Part shown: positions 15,532 through 23,472 of the stretch, in pieces
How the letters are laid out: every line of letters begins with the position of its first letter
Numbering within the stretch: position 1 is the first letter of the stretch
Assembly (NCBI RefSeq): GCF_001922345.1
Contig: NZ_CP018811.1
Coordinates: forward strand, 1,302,001 to 1,366,000
DNA: 64,000 bases
Origin: Paraburkholderia sp. SOS3
GTDB taxonomy: Bacteria; Pseudomonadota; Gammaproteobacteria; Burkholderiales; Burkholderiaceae
Direction of reading: 5' to 3'
The notes under the pieces: model-generated
The model's database searches: none
Told to the model about the DNA's origin: nothing
The model's input: the letters and a program-made list of their open reading frames with translations, nothing else
Position numbers and translations under genes: made by a program

Positions 15532-16305
15532 TCAGGTCCGGTAAGCTGCGGCGCCGAAAGTTGCGCCCGACACGCCGCCGTCCACGGCCAGTTCCGCGCC
15601 ATGCATGTAAGACGCGTCATCGGAAGCGAGAAACAATGCAGCGCGTGCGATCTCATCGGGGTGCGCCATCCGTCCCACCGGAATCATCCGATTCAGCGCC
15701 TTCGTTCTGGCCTCTATCGCCGCCTCGTCAAGTCCCTCCGTGGCAAACCCGGTTGCTGTGTAGCCAGGCGCCAGCACGTTGATGCGAATGTTCTGCGGAG
15801 CGAGTTCCGCTGACATGCTGCGCACCATCGCAAGTACCGCATGCTTGCTGGCCGGATAGGCGCCGCCGCCGGGCAGGAAGCCGGCCTTGCCCGCAATCGA
15901 GCCGTTCACCACGATGGCCGCTCCGGCGCTCATTAACGGCAGAGACGCCTGAATTGTCAGAAACACAGCGGTCACGTTGGTCAGCAGGATTTCGTCCAGG
16001 TCGCGCTTCGTCGTGTCGGCAATAGCTTTCCCGCGTGCAGTCCCCGCGTTGGCAAAGAGGATGTCGAGTTTGCCGTACGTGTCGGATAACTTGCCGAACA
16101 GCGCCTCCCGCTCCTCGCTCACATTAAGGTCCGCACGCACCGCGAGGGCGGAGTGGTTCAGTTCCACGACGGCGCGATCGAGCTTCTCCTGATTCCGGCC
16201 GGTGATGACCACTCTTGCTCCTTCCGCCAGAAACAGCTTCGCAGCAGCAAGGCCAATCCCTCCGTTTCCACCTGTTATCAGTGCAATTCTGTCCTTCAGC
16301 TTCAT
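15532..16305 (-). CDS. Short-chain dehydrogenase/reductase (SDR)
   Basis: The start is the ATG at 16303-16305 with GGAGAACG upstream, giving 257 residues. Classical SDR features are present: the nucleotide-binding TGGNGGIG near residues 10-17, LFANAGTARG, the catalytic Ser in VVNGSIAG, the YPASK motif and the PGYTATGF segment. It should reduce a ketone or oxidise an alcohol with NAD(P); the substrate is not evident. It lies 45 bp downstream of the ATP-grasp gene on the same strand, so it is probably the third gene of the peptide/ATP-grasp operon. Confidence 0.94.
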   Translation of the reverse strand: MKLKDRIALITGGNGGIGLAAAKLFLAEGARVVITGRNQEKLDRAVVELNHSALAVRADLNVSEEREALFGKLSDTYGKLDILFANAGTARGKAIADTTKRDLDEILLTNVTAVFLTIQASLPLMSAGAAIVVNGSIAGKAGFLPGGGAYPASKHAVLAMVRSMSAELAPQNIRINVLAPGYTATGFATEGLDEAAIEARTKALNRMIPVGRMAHPDEIARAALFLASDDASYMHGAELAVDGGVSGATFGAAAYRT

Positions 16306-16350
16306 CGATCGTTCTCCTGGATAGTGGCGCTTCAAGTCGAGCCGTTCGCG

Positions 16351-17604
16351 TCAGTCAGTCATGTGATCAATGCTCCCGGCGCGATGGGCCGCGCAGAGCA
16401 GCATTTCATCGAACGCGCGAAAGATCCGTTGCATCTGCGCGTGCTTGTAGGGGAAGACTTCGCGGGAGTCCATGTCGTGCACGAGCATCGCTGTCGAGAT
16501 TTCGAAAATGAGCAGCCGGCCGTCTGCTGACTCCGCGCAGTCGAGCCCGACGTACTCGAGTCCCGTGAGGCGGGCCACGCTCGAGAGCGCTGCGCGGTGC
16601 CGGGCGGCGAAGCCGTGCTCGAATGTCTCGATGAAACGTGCTTCTTCCTCGCGAAGTCGGCCATCGTTCGTCATCTCTTCGTATGGGTAATGCACCATCC
16701 AGTCTTTCGAGATGCCCATATGGCACGCGTAGGGAACGCCGTTCAGCAGCACGATCCGGTATTTCCTGTACAGCCCGTCAGAACTGCGATAGTCGATAAA
16801 CGACGCGAGGTAAAAGGCTTTGTCGCCAACTTCGGCGAGATAGCTGCGCAATGCTTCGCGATCGCCGACGCGAGCCAGACTTCTGCCGGCGTGCGAATCC
16901 ACGGGCCGTACGATGAGCGGAAAGTCTATTCCGGCAAGCGACCTGAAGTCGTCTTTCGACGCGAGCGCATCGATCAGCGACGCCTGATCGAGTCGAACGA
17001 CCTCTGCCATGCAGACACCGGGTTCGCGGGCGAGCAGCCGTGTGGCTGCTTCGCGCATGGTCAGCCATACGTGGGCTGGCCGGTTCAGCACCGGGCGCGA
17101 CGACGACGCGACGAGGCTGGCAATTTTCGCGAGCGCACCGCGATTGCTATCGAGAGCGCCGGCGGCTACCAGCACCATATCGTGTTCGGGAAGGCGATCT
17201 TCAGGCGTCCAGTCATCGACATAAAGCATGTCGACGTGCAGTGTCGAATCCTTGACGAGAAATTCGAACGGCGTGTTGGCAACGAGCCTGCCAGGCGCCT
17301 TCAACACGAGCACGCGTGCGCCCGATGCATGGCGAGCTTGTGTACGGAGTCGATAGAGTCGCTGAGAGAGAAGCGCAAGGCGCTGCACCGACAGCGCGGC
17401 ATCGGGCTGGTCTTTCGATTCCAGCACGAGAGCAAGATCCAGTAGCGCGCGCGGATCGTCATGTACACGCGTGTATTCGATCAGCCACTGTCCAAGCTCA
17501 GTCAGGTCTACTCCGGTAAAGGCCTTCTCGAGCATGACGGCAACGCCAGCCATTTCGTATCCAGCCGTCGGCTCGACGGATGCCTCGTCTGGAGCGTCAT
17601 ACAT
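16351..17604 (-). CDS. TPR-containing RimK-like ATP-grasp protein
   Basis: The chosen start, ATG at 17602-17604, has GAGGGG seven bases upstream; the product is 417 residues. Residues about 15-90 look like TPR-type helices (ALLDLALVLESKDQPDAALSVQRLALLSQRL). From about 195 to 400 there is a RimK-like ATP-grasp fold: PLIVRPVDSHAGRSLARV (nucleotide loop), FYLASFIDYRSSDGLYRKYRIVLLNG, and LEYVGLDCAESADGRLLIFEISTAM. ATP-grasp enzymes join a carboxylate to an amine or thiol through an acyl-phosphate, often on peptides. The usual metal-binding Glu-x-Asn near the end reads Glu-Ile-Ser here. The start overlaps the stop of a 30-residue ORF, so the two are likely coupled. The substrate is unknown. Confidence 0.85.
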   Translation of the reverse strand: MYDAPDEASVEPTAGYEMAGVAVMLEKAFTGVDLTELGQWLIEYTRVHDDPRALLDLALVLESKDQPDAALSVQRLALLSQRLYRLRTQARHASGARVLVLKAPGRLVANTPFEFLVKDSTLHVDMLYVDDWTPEDRLPEHDMVLVAAGALDSNRGALAKIASLVASSSRPVLNRPAHVWLTMREAATRLLAREPGVCMAEVVRLDQASLIDALASKDDFRSLAGIDFPLIVRPVDSHAGRSLARVGDREALRSYLAEVGDKAFYLASFIDYRSSDGLYRKYRIVLLNGVPYACHMGISKDWMVHYPYEEMTNDGRLREEEARFIETFEHGFAARHRAALSSVARLTGLEYVGLDCAESADGRLLIFEISTAMLVHDMDSREVFPYKHAQMQRIFRAFDEMLLCAAHRAGSIDHMTD

Positions 17605-17689
17605 GGCCGATCCCCTCGTCATGCAGCAGATAGAACCGGTGGACGAGCGACATACCGTCTGCTGCGCTTTGTACGGTCAGGTTTCTCAT
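17597..17689 (-). CDS. 30-residue peptide gene coupled to the ATP-grasp gene
   Basis: A short frame starts at the ATG at 17687-17689 directly behind AGAGGAAC, the best ribosome binding site in this area. It begins MRNLTVQ and ends DEGIGHV. Its TGA at 17597-17599 lies inside the first codons of the ATP-grasp gene, giving an 8-base overlap and strong translational coupling. The frame stays open further upstream (ATG at 17764, TTG at 17785) and a 55-residue form is possible. It may be the substrate of the adjacent ATP-grasp enzyme, or only a coupling leader. It does not match any precursor family I know. Confidence 0.5.
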   Translation of the reverse strand: MRNLTVQSAADGMSLVHRFYLLHDEGIGHV

Positions 17690-17790
17690 GTTCCTCTTTG
17701 GCGAACCAATGCAACGCAGAAAGCCCGCTGAATCAAACCTGCTTTGATCGATGAATTTCGACATCAGGACCTGCAGATCTTGCAATGCGC

Positions 17791-18044: not shown

Positions 18045-19238
18045 ATGACATATTCGATTGCGCAATTGCTTCACGATGAATCCGCTGTGGAGGCATTCAT
18101 CGCTTCAGTCACATCCATCGAGCCGTTGATCCACGCGCACGCAAGCGATCTGCGGCACGGCCCTGATCTTCCCGGCCCGATTGCAAATGCGCTTGGCGAA
18201 GCGGGTCTGACATCGCTGTGGGTTCCCAAGTCGCTTGGCGGGCCCGAACTGTCGCCGGCCGGGCTGATTCGCGTGGTGGAGGCGCTCGCGCGTCTCGATG
18301 GATCGGTGGCATGGTGCGCCGGCGTGGCGGCGGCCGGCTCGAGGATTGCGGGACTCGTTCCGCGTCACGTATCGCGCAGCATTTTTTCGGCACATGGCTC
18401 GGTTGCCGGCAGCCTGATGCCTGGCGGCACGGCGCTGCGCGAAAGCGGAGGGTGGCGTGTCAGCGGGCGATGGCAGTGGGGCAGCTTCGTGCGCCATAGT
18501 CGAGCCGTTGTCGTGGCCTGTCGTGAACGGCACGAAGGCGCCGATATCTCGGAGAATGGTCCGACTGTGCTGAGGCTCGCCATCGTCCCCACATCGGATA
18601 TCGCCATTCTCGACAACTGGCGTGCAGCCGGCCTGCGTGCGACCGGCAGTCACGACTACACGATCGACCGTGTGTTCGTGCCTGACGACTGGACGATCTC
18701 GTTGTCCGACTATTCAGCCGCGCCGCACGAGTCCGGCGCATTGTACGGACTACCTTTCGTGACCGTGCTCGGACTAGGCATCGCGGCGGTGCCGCTGGGC
18801 CTCGCTCGCGCGGCCATCGACTCGCTGTGCGAACTCGCGAAAGCAAAGATGGGCAATGGATCGCCGGGCCTGCTCGAAGACGAAGCCCATGTCCAGTCGG
18901 ATATCGCGCGCGCCGAAGCCATGTTGCGCAGCGCACGCGCCTTTCTGCTCGATTCGGTCGACGACATGTGGAAAACCGCTGGGCGAAAAGGCGGCAATAC
19001 GCTCCACGACCGCGCCTTGGTGAGGATGGCCTGCTGGCATACCGCCCAAACCGCGCGCGAGGTGGTGCAAGCAATGCATCTATTGGCCGGGGGCACCGCG
19101 GTGAGCGACAATTCCGCGTTTGCAGCTCAACTGCGGGACGTGCATACGGCATCGCAGCATATTTACTTCTCAATGCGCAATCTGGAAGCCGCGGGCCGTG
19201 TAATGCTCGGCATGAACGTCGGCACCGAACGTTTCTGA
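18045..19238 (+). CDS. Acyl-CoA-dehydrogenase-like flavoprotein (probable flavin-dependent oxygenase type)
   Basis: The 397-residue protein has the three-part acyl-CoA dehydrogenase fold: N-terminal helices (LPGPIANALGEAGLTSLWVPKSLGG), a middle beta domain (GGWRVSGRWQWGSFVRHS) and a C-terminal four-helix bundle (ACLALA-like LARAAIDSLCELAK to EAAGRVMLGMNVG). The late QHIYFSMRNLEAAGR block and absence of the usual catalytic Glu context place it closer to DszC/HsaA-like monooxygenases than to fatty-acid dehydrogenases. It would bind FMN or FAD. It is divergent from the ATP-grasp operon, and its stop coincides with a strong hairpin. The substrate is unknown. Confidence 0.88.
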   Translation: MTYSIAQLLHDESAVEAFIASVTSIEPLIHAHASDLRHGPDLPGPIANALGEAGLTSLWVPKSLGGPELSPAGLIRVVEALARLDGSVAWCAGVAAAGSRIAGLVPRHVSRSIFSAHGSVAGSLMPGGTALRESGGWRVSGRWQWGSFVRHSRAVVVACRERHEGADISENGPTVLRLAIVPTSDIAILDNWRAAGLRATGSHDYTIDRVFVPDDWTISLSDYSAAPHESGALYGLPFVTVLGLGIAAVPLGLARAAIDSLCELAKAKMGNGSPGLLEDEAHVQSDIARAEAMLRSARAFLLDSVDDMWKTAGRKGGNTLHDRALVRMACWHTAQTAREVVQAMHLLAGGTAVSDNSAFAAQLRDVHTASQHIYFSMRNLEAAGRVMLGMNVGTERF

Positions 19239-20735
19239 CGGCAACATGGCGCGAGCGCCATGTTGCCGTGGCTGCGCTCGACCGCGGAAAACATCAGTCG
19301 GGCCGGACGCCGAAGCACTGGGCGACACATCGGCGGACATATCCCAACCGCCGCCTAACGATCGATACAACGCGACCGCGGCTCGCGCATGCATGCGTTT
19401 CGCCTCGTTCAGCGCTTCGGCGTCGACAAGATAGGCCTGCTGCGCATCGAGCACGTCGAGGAAACTCGATGCACCGGCTTTGTACAGTTGCGTCGACAGC
19501 TTCAATGCCTTGTCCGATGTGGTCAGTGCGCCGCCGAGCTGTTCTGCCTGCGCCGCGCCGCTGAAGAGGTCGCTGCGCGTGTCTTCGATTTCCTTTAGCG
19601 CGTCGAGCATCGTCTGGTTCAGCGCCAGCTGCGATTCACGCATGCGGCTCTCGCTCGCGTCGATATTCGCGGCGATGCGCCCGGCGTTGAAGATCGGGCT
19701 CGTCGCGCTCAGCGCGGCGCTAAACAGGTTATCGGTCAGCGTCGGTGTGTTGACCCACGACGCGGAAAGAAATCCGTCGCTCAGGTCGAATCGGAATTTC
19801 GGGTAGCGCTCGGAGCGTGCGAGCCCGACCTCTGCCGCACGCTGCTCGACTCTGGCGTAGGCGGTGCGCACGTCCGGGCGGCGCAGCAGCGCATCGGACG
19901 GCAGTGTCGACGGCACGCCTTGCGACGGCACCGGAATCGGACGCGCATCCGTCAGAACCAGCGGGCTCACGCTCTCGGGCGTGCGGCCCGACAACACCGC
20001 AATGAGGCTCAACTCGTGCTGGATGTCCGATTGAATGCGCGGCATGCGTGCCTGCAGAACCTGCAACTGGTTGCGCGCGCGGGCGACATCGAGCTGCGTC
20101 GACAGCCCGAAGCGCAGGCGGTCCTCGGTCAGCTTCAGCGCGCGGCTACGGATCTGCTCGTTGTCGGTGAGGATTTGCAGTTCCGATTGTGCCCATCGCA
20201 AGTCGATATAAGCGGTTGCGGTATTGGCGGCGAGCGCGAGCCGCAATTCGTTCAGCGCAAAGCGTCGGCCCGACACCTGGGCTTGCGATGCGAGCACCGC
20301 GAGACGTTGGCCCCCGAAGACGTCGAGATCCCAGCTGGCAGAGAGCCCAAAGCCGGCAGAGTCGACGTAGCCGAGCGGCGGCGGCGTGATCTGCCGCGCG
20401 TGCGCCGCGATCGCGGACGCATCGACTTCCGGCAACAGATCCGCATGGCGCACGGTCACCACGTCCTCGGCCTGCTTGACGCGTTCGACGGCTGCCTGCA
20501 CGTCGAGATTGCCGTTCAGTACCGACCGCACGAGTTCGTGCAGGGTCGAGTCGCCGAACTGTGCCCACCACGTATCGGCGTTCACCGCGTCTTGCAGCGC
20601 GTCCATGTTCCACGCCGCAGGCGAAAGGGATGTTACGTTTTCCGTAAGATTCTCGTGGCTTGCAGGTTGGAGTGCGCACGCAGTTAGCATCAGCGCAGCG
20701 GCAATACAGGTGATCGATTCTATTGTCCGTTTCAT
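19170..20735 (-). CDS. NodT-family outer membrane efflux lipoprotein
   Basis: From the ATG at 20733-20735, 521 residues are encoded. A lipoprotein signal ends in LTAC with Cys at residue 20, and two OEP repeats follow (AVERVKQAEDVVTVRHADLLPEVDAS; QAYLVDAEALNEAKRMHARAAVALYRSLGGGW). It is the TolC-like channel of a tripartite pump with the EmrB- and EmrA-type genes immediately upstream. About 45 residues follow the SLGGGW element where family members usually end. That tail reads through a strong hairpin and overlaps the convergent flavoprotein gene by 69 bp, so the true end may differ. Confidence 0.92.
   Translation of the reverse strand: MKRTIESITCIAAALMLTACALQPASHENLTENVTSLSPAAWNMDALQDAVNADTWWAQFGDSTLHELVRSVLNGNLDVQAAVERVKQAEDVVTVRHADLLPEVDASAIAAHARQITPPPLGYVDSAGFGLSASWDLDVFGGQRLAVLASQAQVSGRRFALNELRLALAANTATAYIDLRWAQSELQILTDNEQIRSRALKLTEDRLRFGLSTQLDVARARNQLQVLQARMPRIQSDIQHELSLIAVLSGRTPESVSPLVLTDARPIPVPSQGVPSTLPSDALLRRPDVRTAYARVEQRAAEVGLARSERYPKFRFDLSDGFLSASWVNTPTLTDNLFSAALSATSPIFNAGRIAANIDASESRMRESQLALNQTMLDALKEIEDTRSDLFSGAAQAEQLGGALTTSDKALKLSTQLYKAGASSFLDVLDAQQAYLVDAEALNEAKRMHARAAVALYRSLGGGWDMSADVSPSASASGPTDVFRGRAQPRQHGARAMLPSETFGADVHAEHYTARGFQIAH
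19238..19269. terminator. Strong 15-bp hairpin, probable bidirectional terminator
   Basis: The arms at 19238-19252 and 19255-19269 are perfectly complementary (core GGCAACATGGCGC and GCGCCATGTTGCC) with a two-base centre. The hairpin begins at the last base of the flavoprotein gene. It lacks a clear T-run but is the most stable stem I see in the window. It falls inside the unusually long C-terminus of the convergent NodT gene. Confidence 0.65.
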
Positions 20736-20740
20736 GGCAG

Positions 20741-22339
20741 TTATTTGGTGGGCGTCCCCGGCGGCGCAGTCAGGCCGAAGGGCCGTGAAAACAGCAGTGC
20801 GAAAAGCGCGACGCCGAAGCACAACGTCACCGCAAGGAACGTATCGGAGTAGGTCAGGACCAGCGCCTCGCGCATGACCAGGGAATGGAGCATGGCCATC
20901 CCGCCCTGCGCGCTGTTCAACGTATCACCCGCCACGGCGCCCAGATGCGCCATCTGTCTTTCCATCGCGAGGTCGATACGCGGCCTGCCGGCCGTCACAT
21001 GTTCGGCAAGCCGCTCATAATGCAGATTCAAACGGTCGTTCAACATCGTGCTGACCACCGCGATGCCGATTGCGCCGCCAAGATTACGCATCAGATTGAA
21101 CAGGCCGCTGGCCGATTTCAACCGCGCGGGCGGCAAACTGCCGAGCGACATCATCACGATCGGCGAGATGCAGAACTGCTGGCCGAAGCCGCGCAGCATC
21201 TGCGGAATCAGCAGTTGCTGCCAGCCCCAGTCGTGCGTCACGGGCACGTACAGCGCGCTGCCGATGCCGAACAGCAGGAGTCCGAATACGAGGAGCCTGC
21301 GCAACGGCACGAAGCGCGCAAACCACGTGTACACGACGAGCCCGACCAGCTGTGCGGAACCGACCGACAGCATCGCGACGCCGATCTGCAACGAATCGAA
21401 TCCGCGTACGCGCGAAAGGAACCCCGGCGTCAGGAACACCATGCAATAGATGCCGATGCCGATCACGAACGATTGCAGACTGCCGATGGCGAAGTTGCGT
21501 AATCCGAGCGCCCGCAAATCGACGATGGGCTCTTTGGCGGTGAATGCATGGACGAGAAACAGAAAACCCGAGATGCCCGCGATCCACGCGCAGGCGAGTA
21601 TCGCGTCGTCACCGAACCAGTTCTTGCGTGGACCTTCCTCGAGCACGTATTCGAGGCAGCCGAGGAAGGCGGACATCAGCACGATGCCGAGATAATCGCC
21701 GCGCTTGAGCAGCGACAGGTCCGCTTCGTCCACATGCACGAACTTCGGCACAAGCACCGTGACGGCGATGCCGGGCACGAGGTTGATGAAGAACAGCCAG
21801 TGCCACGACCACTGATCGGTGAGCCAGCCGCCGATCACGGGTCCGATGGTCGGCGCGAGCGACGCGAGCGTGCTGACCGCCGTCGACGCGATCAGTCGCT
21901 GCTTGCCGGGTGGAAACAGCACGAACACCGTCGTGAACACCGTGGGGATCATCACGGCGCCGAGCGCGCCTTGCAGCGCGCGAAAGAGGATCATCGAATC
22001 GATGTCCCATGCGAGGCCGCAGACCATGCTGACCGCGGTAAAGCCCAGCGCCGAGGCGGCGAAGAGCCACCGCGTCGAGAATACGCGAGAGAGCCAGCCC
22101 GACATCGGAATCACGATGATCTCGGCGATCAGATAGGAGGTCTGCACCCACGAGAGCTCATCCTGACTCGCCGACAAGCCACCGCCGATGTCTTTTAAGG
22201 ACGAAGCGACGATCTGGATATCGAGCGTCGCCATGAAGAAGCCGACGCACATCAACACGAACGCGAATACTTTGGCGCGAAGCGGCTGGTCGGCCGGGTT
22301 TAGCGTTGGGGCGGGCGCTGCCGCGATTGCCGTCGTCAT
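20741..22339 (-). CDS. emrB: DHA2 family drug:H+ antiporter (EmrB type)
   Basis: The 532-residue protein has about 14 hydrophobic segments, as in the DHA2 branch of the major facilitator superfamily. Visible signatures are FMATLDIQIVASSLKDIGGGL in helix 1 and the ALQGALGAVMIPTVFT and VGPxxGGWLTDxxSWHWLFFINLVPG-like blocks. It would export hydrophobic compounds through the EmrA-like adaptor and the NodT channel. It overlaps the adaptor gene by four bases and ends six bases before the channel gene. Confidence 0.95.
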   Translation of the reverse strand: MTTAIAAAPAPTLNPADQPLRAKVFAFVLMCVGFFMATLDIQIVASSLKDIGGGLSASQDELSWVQTSYLIAEIIVIPMSGWLSRVFSTRWLFAASALGFTAVSMVCGLAWDIDSMILFRALQGALGAVMIPTVFTTVFVLFPPGKQRLIASTAVSTLASLAPTIGPVIGGWLTDQWSWHWLFFINLVPGIAVTVLVPKFVHVDEADLSLLKRGDYLGIVLMSAFLGCLEYVLEEGPRKNWFGDDAILACAWIAGISGFLFLVHAFTAKEPIVDLRALGLRNFAIGSLQSFVIGIGIYCMVFLTPGFLSRVRGFDSLQIGVAMLSVGSAQLVGLVVYTWFARFVPLRRLLVFGLLLFGIGSALYVPVTHDWGWQQLLIPQMLRGFGQQFCISPIVMMSLGSLPPARLKSASGLFNLMRNLGGAIGIAVVSTMLNDRLNLHYERLAEHVTAGRPRIDLAMERQMAHLGAVAGDTLNSAQGGMAMLHSLVMREALVLTYSDTFLAVTLCFGVALFALLFSRPFGLTAPPGTPTK

Positions 22340-23472
22340 TGCACATCATCCGTCGCCGTCGCGGTTTTTTCCGGCTCGCGCGAAGTCGGAGTACCGCTGC
22401 CGAGATGCACGCTTACGGTTGCCGACAAGCCCGGCCGCAGTACGTGATGCAGGTTCTTCGGCACGTCGAGCCAGATACGCACCGGCACCCGCTGCACGAT
22501 CTTCGTGAAGTTGCCGGTTGCGTTTTCCGCGGGCAGGATGCTGAAGGTCGCGCCGGTGGCCGGGGCGAGGCTTTGCACGACGCCGGTAATCGGTTCGCTC
22601 GATGCGTCGAGCTTCACGTCGACCTTGTTGCCCGCCTGCATGTGCCGGAGCTGGTCTTCCTTGAAATTCGCATCGATCCAAAGACCGTGCTCGGGCACCA
22701 CGGTCAACAGCGAGATGCCGACATTGGCGAGCATGCCGACGCGCGCCGTGCGGTTGCCGATGTAACCGTCTATGGGCGAGCGGATCGTCGTGTATTCCAC
22801 ATTCAGTTGCGCGACGCGCTGCGCGGCTTTTGCCGTCGCGACGCGCGCCTGCGCGTCGCCGATCTGCGCATCGACCACGGTAAGCTGACGCTGCGCGGCA
22901 ACCAGCGACGCATTGCTGCGATCGACTGCGGCGCGCGCTTTCTGCAGGTCCGCATCGGCGCGCTCGACCACCTGATCCGATACGGCCTCGTCCTTCACGA
23001 GCGCGCGATAGCGATACTGGTCGGCCGCGCTGCGCGTGAGCTCGGCGCTCGATGCGTGGACGCCCGCCGCCTGCTCGTTGATCAGGGCGAGCTGCAGCGT
23101 GCGCTTCGCCTCGAGTTCGGTCACGGCGGCTTGCGCGCTCTGCACTTCGGCGTTCGCCTGTGCGAGCCGCGCGTCGTAGTCGCGCGAATCGATGCGGATC
23201 AGTACCTGATTCGCATGCACGAACTGGTTGTCCTTCACGAGCACGTCGGTCACGAAGCCGCTCACGCGCGGCGCCATCACGGTGACGTCGCCGCCGACAT
23301 ACGCATCGTCGGTGGTTTCGATAAGGCGGCCGACGAAGTACCAGTACGCGGCAGCGGCAAGTGCGACGGCGACGACGGAGAATATCGCAAGGGCCATCCA
23401 GGGAATGCGTCGCGCCTTGATCTGGCTGCCGGTGTCGCTGACCGGGGTGGCTGCTGATGAGGAAGAAGTCAT
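22336..23472 (-). CDS. emrA: HlyD/EmrA family membrane fusion protein
   Basis: This 378-residue adaptor has one N-terminal membrane helix (about residues 27-50, PWMALAIFSVVAVALAAAAY), a lipoyl/barrel-sandwich half (DDAYVGGDVTVMAPRVSGFV), a long alpha-hairpin coiled coil (about 95-215, rich in Ala, Gln, Arg) and a second lipoyl half (YTTIRSPIDGYIGNRTARVG). It links the inner-membrane antiporter to the outer-membrane channel. It is the first gene of the three-gene efflux operon and is divergent from the diguanylate cyclase gene. No MarR or TetR regulator is adjacent. Confidence 0.95.
   Translation of the reverse strand: MTSSSSAATPVSDTGSQIKARRIPWMALAIFSVVAVALAAAAYWYFVGRLIETTDDAYVGGDVTVMAPRVSGFVTDVLVKDNQFVHANQVLIRIDSRDYDARLAQANAEVQSAQAAVTELEAKRTLQLALINEQAAGVHASSAELTRSAADQYRYRALVKDEAVSDQVVERADADLQKARAAVDRSNASLVAAQRQLTVVDAQIGDAQARVATAKAAQRVAQLNVEYTTIRSPIDGYIGNRTARVGMLANVGISLLTVVPEHGLWIDANFKEDQLRHMQAGNKVDVKLDASSEPITGVVQSLAPATGATFSILPAENATGNFTKIVQRVPVRIWLDVPKNLHHVLRPGLSATVSVHLGSGTPTSREPEKTATATDDVQ

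Follow-up and report, generated by a model that had tools for sequence, protein, structure and literature searches.

The locus described here lies on the minus strand of a 64,000-nucleotide stretch of Paraburkholderia sp. SOS3 (contig NZ_CP018811.1, positions 1,302,001 to 1,366,000; "the window" is this whole stretch), in a genome (G000) of 7.5 Mb and three contigs. Between positions 17689 and 15532, a 30-codon open reading frame (ORF), an ATP-grasp gene and a gene for a short-chain dehydrogenase/reductase (SDR) follow each other in tight series, as the initial annotation had described. The ORF (17597..17689, translated as MRNLTVQSAADGMSLVHRFYLLHDEGIGHV and closed by a stop) is preceded immediately by the Shine-Dalgarno-like sequence AAAGAGGAAC (17690..17699), carries the leader motif GMSLV (17642..17656) and a weak core-like stretch, LHDEGIGHV (17600..17626), and ends in the overlap ATGTATGA (17597..17604), in which the ATG of the ATP-grasp gene stands 5 nt before the TGA stop of the peptide. 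The frame is also open as a longer reading of 55 aa, with a Shine-Dalgarno sequence that looks weaker by eye. The ATP-grasp gene (16351..17604) encodes a putative ligase of 417 aa, or of 423 aa if read from another ATG in the same frame, 18 nt upstream, and the SDR gene (15532..16305) starts with an ATG at 16305, 45 bp past the ligase stop. We see about an even chance that what the window carries is a diverged and reduced version of a Burkholderiaceae unit whose peptide is probably the ribosomal substrate or carrier for the ligase. The intact unit consists of a small peptide with an acidic core, a TPR/ATP-grasp ligase and a SerC-like aminotransferase dependent on pyridoxal phosphate (PLP). A full-text literature search yielded no paper describing a unit of peptide, ligase and SerC-like gene, and both the peptide family and the unit appear to be undescribed so far.

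In a tree of the ligases (L024, L061, L079, L080 and L081 were left out) the ligase of the window sits inside a clade of 37 rows (support 100/99), which contains all peptide loci and 27 rows with DNA; L023 and L024, which duplicate L048 and L052, were dropped before counting. In 16 of the 27 clade loci with DNA (L044-L051, L054-L057, L059, L062, L067 and L068) an intact, uncharacterised peptide of 63-77 residues, here called family A1, is encoded just upstream of the ligase, so that the short ORF predicted for orthologous ligases is usually but not always there. Common to the family peptides are the near-constant core WF[ED]EEVGY[VI]GE and the leader motif LSLV, most often at residues 13-16 (24 of the 36 members have its first residue at position 13). 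Conserved residues had been expected at the C-terminus; they exist, but in the middle of the peptide, with a variable tail of 15-23 more residues behind them. Among the 16 members with DNA, all pairs pooled, the ratio of nonsynonymous to synonymous change (pN/pS) is 0.26 in the core (11 residues), 0.79 in the leader and 0.81 in the tail, with similar synonymous change in core, leader and tail (0.66, 0.62 and 0.70). The core is therefore conserved as protein and the remainder hardly, and purifying selection, which the initial annotation proposed to look for by codon substitution, acts chiefly on it. Whole-peptide dN/dS for the 20 most similar pairs ranges from 0.33 to 1.24, apart from one value of 5.66 that is meaningless, as it stands on half a synonymous change. 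EVGY is invariant across the 19 family members found in a public protein search; the exceptions among the DNA members are L for Y in L057 and L148, I for V in L054 and L057, and S for E in L068. The public members are called hypothetical protein wherever they are named, apart from P0138, which bears the apparently wrong name transposase in UniRef. For the L059 peptide a TTG start was taken (65 aa); P0140, its public record, has a later start and is 55 aa long. The predicted structure of the peptide is without a fold (mean predicted local distance difference test, pLDDT, 59.7), and its best block, residues 11-20, contains the leader motif. Two subfamilies can be told apart, L044/L045 and L046/L050, in one of which the peptide is extended at its N-terminus and has NPFVLID where the LSLV leader would stand.

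The family model matches 18 of 144 congeneric genomes at E ≤ 0.01, two of them (G089 and G046, E 0.005-0.007) so weakly that they were taken as chance. The ligase (matches counted at E ≤ 1e-60) is present in 15 of the remaining 16 as well, and G120, the only other one, has a ligase relic; three of the 16 (G036, G038 and G057) have damaged peptides only. Two of the 17 congeneric genomes with the ligase are without a family-model match, that of the window and G093, and the ORFs are divergent in both. In a sample of 398 genomes of the family, all six peptide matches adjoin the ligase (three of these genomes are also in the genus set, and one peptide is truncated), and the 50 loci outside the ligase clade gave no significant match to the peptide model. 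The peptide is found almost exclusively beside this ligase and was detected in a single Burkholderiaceae clade only; its tie to the ligase is supported at the family level. When labels were shuffled on the tree, 84 of 500 shuffles gave a value as low as the observed one, which does not show the intact peptides to cluster beyond chance among the labelled rows. At L148 (G120:C2:1465706-1465879) an intact family peptide is followed, by eye, by the ligase relic, the peptide having outlived the enzyme. In arrangement and core, the family has at sequence level the features of ribosomally synthesised and post-translationally modified peptides, a short leader/core peptide beside an enzyme. Neighbour clustering (41 stretches, 25 widest clusters, most neighbours unannotated) recognised no peptidase or exporter common to many loci, as leader cleavage would call for.

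The ligase itself is present in 17 of the 144 congeneric genomes, its own included, with the best matches of the other genomes at 49-54% identity, and in 21 of the 398 genomes sampled from the family (five shared with the genus set), at 39-55% identity apart from the ligase of the window genome itself; named relatives with ligase loci are Paraburkholderia panacisoli and P. metrosideri. Neither Pfam nor NCBIfam assigns the window ligase to a family at E ≤ 0.001, and no family of either database reached its curated cut-off for the ligase or the peptides; the homologue P0007 has sub-threshold matches only, the best to CofF, at E 6.9e-6 and with 25 bits where the cut-off is 300. The label "TPR/ATP-grasp" given in the initial annotation therefore rests on structure, and here the AlphaFold model bore it out (mean pLDDT 92.5), with four helices at residues 21-80, forming a TPR-like N-terminal domain, and, starting near residue 95, a predicted RimK/LysX/ArgX-like ATP-grasp fold. 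In structure comparison the model matches ArgX, RimK and LysX best, including ArgX with LysW, and also D-Ala-D-Ala ligases. Graspetide synthetases are absent among the 50 matches listed in each of two structure searches, an absence that excludes nothing. A second, truncated ligase copy of the window genome (L061, G000:C2:599837-600514) has an open frame of 240 aa, which corresponds to approximately residues 180-408 of the query, and the family model finds no peptide match there.

The SDR, taken for the operon partner in the initial annotation, is not conserved, since, its own genome aside, only a single relative at E ≤ 1e-90 (66% identity) occurs in the 144 genomes. That place belongs to the SerC-like aminotransferase, which directly follows the ligase in 25 of the 27 clade loci, the window and L050 being the exceptions; it is matched by the NCBIfam phosphoserine transaminase models and is broken by a stop in L058. 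Within the 64-kb window there is no SerC-like gene. That of the window genome lies at C1:729501, beside the TPR/ATP-grasp paralogue of locus L080. The SerC-like gene occurs at 50 places in 44 of the 144 congeneric genomes, of which 17 are beside a ligase of the window type, one is that of the window genome and 32 are others. The 20 less divergent of these 32 were covered, and all 20 have a TPR/ATP-grasp gene of one of two other types nearby (18 like L080, two like L081). At L178-L197 and L080 the SerC-like and TPR/ATP-grasp genes form a two-gene module in collinear, reversed or divergent order, with the ligase match split into two pieces at L180. Small ORFs conserved near these 21 loci proved to be either the beginnings of these two genes or frames that overlap, and no recognisable peptide gene was seen among them. 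Outside the clade (50 loci), a gene like group II PLP decarboxylases is present at 27 loci, a SerC-like gene at 11 and, at 25, the gene for a second protein, about 500 aa long, that is taken for a PLP enzyme although it has no NCBIfam match; the ligase class therefore goes with PLP enzymes. Many Burkholderiales loci (L129-L165) have the ligase orthologue between a PLP enzyme like diaminobutyrate/aspartate decarboxylases and the protein of about 500 aa. The decarboxylase usually ends shortly before the ligase, and the peptide model finds no peptide in these operons.

The 30-codon ORF of the window is likely a member of family A1, judging by its sequence, and its resemblance to the family is probably more than chance. 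Its leader motif GMSLV occupies residues 12-16; at this place GLSLV stands in L046 and L050, and RLSLV in other members. The Shine-Dalgarno sequence before its Met is similar to that of L046 (AGAGAGGAATAAAC), the overlap of peptide stop and ligase start is also possible in L046 and L050, and the peptide ends in GHV where these two end in GHD. With position matrices built without the window ORF, shuffling gave p = 0.0007 for the leader at its fixed place, 0.015 for the best core (LHDEGIGHV, whose family counterpart is WFEEEVGYV) and 1.5e-5 for both together. Both scores were reached by 11 of 23,660 background ORFs (ATG or GTG starts, 25-80 aa, all starts counted, 1.25 Mb in 92 stretches including the window), namely ten known members and the window ORF, a count that is weakened by the thresholds being the ORF's own scores and by the motifs having been compared after the ORF had already been seen. 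Further points weigh on the same side: the hidden Markov model (HMM) of the family does not find the window ORF, a homologue search with it found none, and its core scores 3.9 bits against at least 26.7 bits in family members. The alignment of its DNA is equalled by 30-217 of 300 shuffles for nine relatives, L050 included (for L046 and L044 by seven each and for L067 by 23), and peptide likeness points to L046/L050, whereas the tree-nearest peptide loci are L044, L045 and L059, with weak support (88/76).

The missing HMM match and homologue, the weak core, the DNA similarity mostly at shuffle level, the late comparison of motifs and the commonness of loss in the clade would all suit a chance or dead frame before a ligase gene whose peptide is gone, the situation of L052, L053, L058 and L069. 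Such a frame would concern the window alone and is compatible with the family-level reading; it has to be set against a leader motif at the family position, a Shine-Dalgarno sequence and overlap geometry like those of L046, and the fact that no other non-member among the background ORFs matches both motifs, and we consider it possible but on the unlikely side. Ligases P0003-P0005 are 80-84% identical to that of the window, and when the N-terminal extensions of P0003 and P0004 were back-read by hand, a TGA was possible at the same place in both, but the core positions looked different in the two; this leans towards decay, but is weak and was not counted. The core of the window ORF is judged to be degraded or much altered. 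The 30-residue peptide does not represent the type of the family but appears to be a reduced outlier with a weak core, and the window copy may no longer be fully working.

In the intact unit the peptide would serve as ribosomal substrate or carrier. The leader would dock onto the ligase, which would activate a carboxylate of the WFxEEVGYxGE core and attach an amino acid or amine by LysX/RimK-type chemistry, and the aminotransferase would supply or alter the attached amino acid. The window copy would have lost the spacer of its peptide and the larger part of the core, with the SerC-like gene elsewhere and the SDR in its place, which is why this copy is read as remodelled or decaying. The predicted fold, the acidic core, the lack of conserved hydroxyl or amine donors and the PLP partners fit ligation of an amino acid or amine better than ring closure, and suggest that the ligase adds an amino acid to an acidic peptide.

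The losses within the clade weigh against the peptide as substrate. Nine of the 27 clade loci have kept the ligase with a broken peptide or with none found, and the finding that the initial annotation had named as contrary to its proposal, an orthologous ligase lacking the ORF, was thus made in part. In five the peptide is broken or truncated: in L052 and L053 the core is missing, in L060 it is interrupted by an in-frame stop, and L058 and L069, by eye, have kept the tail alone. In four (L063, L064, L065 and L066) no peptide was found, and at L065 and L066 one cannot be excluded, because the sequence begins only about 330-360 bases before the match. Two more, the window and, by eye, L043, have divergent peptide ORFs. 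The strongest argument for a ligase role free of the peptide, or for a regulatory peptide, comes from L052 and L053, which are from related genomes: the core has been lost in frame, and leader, end, ligase and aminotransferase are still open.

A regulatory or coupling leader peptide, the translation of which, perhaps with stalling at the EVGY core, would set ligase expression and which would never be modified, could explain both the loss of the core where the ligase remains and the lack of a predicted fold. It would also suit the window and six of the 16 intact loci (L044, L045, L046, L050, L059 and L068), where the ligase start overlaps the peptide stop or lies at most 9 nt from it. In the ten others, however, the likely ligase start is 58-109 nt past the stop, and coupling is therefore not general. 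Arrest motifs typically sit near the peptide end, unlike this core with its trailing tail, and we hold a purely regulatory peptide to be unlikely. A graspetide pathway, in which the ATP-grasp enzyme closes ester or amide rings between core side chains, is highly improbable: as in microviridin and its relatives the enzyme adjoins a leader/core peptide with conserved acidic residues, but graspetide cores have conserved Thr, Ser or Lys donors beside their Asp and Glu acceptors, whereas the 36 cores of family A1 (21 different) have no conserved Ser, Thr or Lys, and the structural matches are best to LysX/ArgX/RimK and D-Ala-D-Ala ligases.

Among the closest known systems is the amino-group carrier protein LysW with LysX/ArgX, in which the ligase likewise has the RimK-type ATP-grasp fold that is predicted here. 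LysW is a zinc-binding carrier that has a fold and bears an acidic motif at its C-terminal end, whereas the peptide of family A1 is without a predicted fold and has its acidic motif internally. The ligase differs from LysX/ArgX in its extra helical N-terminal domain, and no further enzymes of the LysW pathway were recognised beside it, most neighbours being unannotated. RimK, which adds poly-glutamate to ribosomal protein S6, is another: homologues of the ligase score 18-22 bits, far below the NCBIfam RimK cut-off of 143.4, the window ligase has no match at E ≤ 0.001, and the ligase goes with a peptide of its own and with a SerC-like enzyme. The pearlins, in which a scaffold peptide is extended by one amino acid, share the idea, although the peptide aminoacyl-tRNA ligases (PEARLs) use aminoacyl-tRNA (PMC12424672); the enzyme here has a predicted RimK/LysX-like ATP-grasp fold. 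The main text of a graspetide survey names no Burkholderia or Paraburkholderia host (PMC8939145).

The three genes for peptide, ligase and PLP enzyme make a testable unit in a well-studied bacterial family, in which the constancy of the core makes the putative modified site predictable. The SerC-like enzymes, paired with three kinds of TPR/ATP-grasp ligase, point to an unassigned pathway. It is a more speculative and rather doubtful proposal that the unit represents a new peptide-borne chemistry, in which a TPR/RimK-fold ligase would load the WFxEEVGYxGE core of an unstructured ribosomal peptide, the amino acid being made or remodelled by a SerC-like enzyme dedicated to it, as a bacterial counterpart of the LysW system on a disposable peptide; the window would then hold a miniature version of 30 residues with an SDR.

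PADLOC gave no match for the ligase, the peptide P0128 or the SDR. Beyond the operon, as the initial annotation had indicated, lie a gene for an acyl-CoA-dehydrogenase-like flavoprotein (18045-19238, plus strand) and a group of efflux genes (19170-23472, minus strand).
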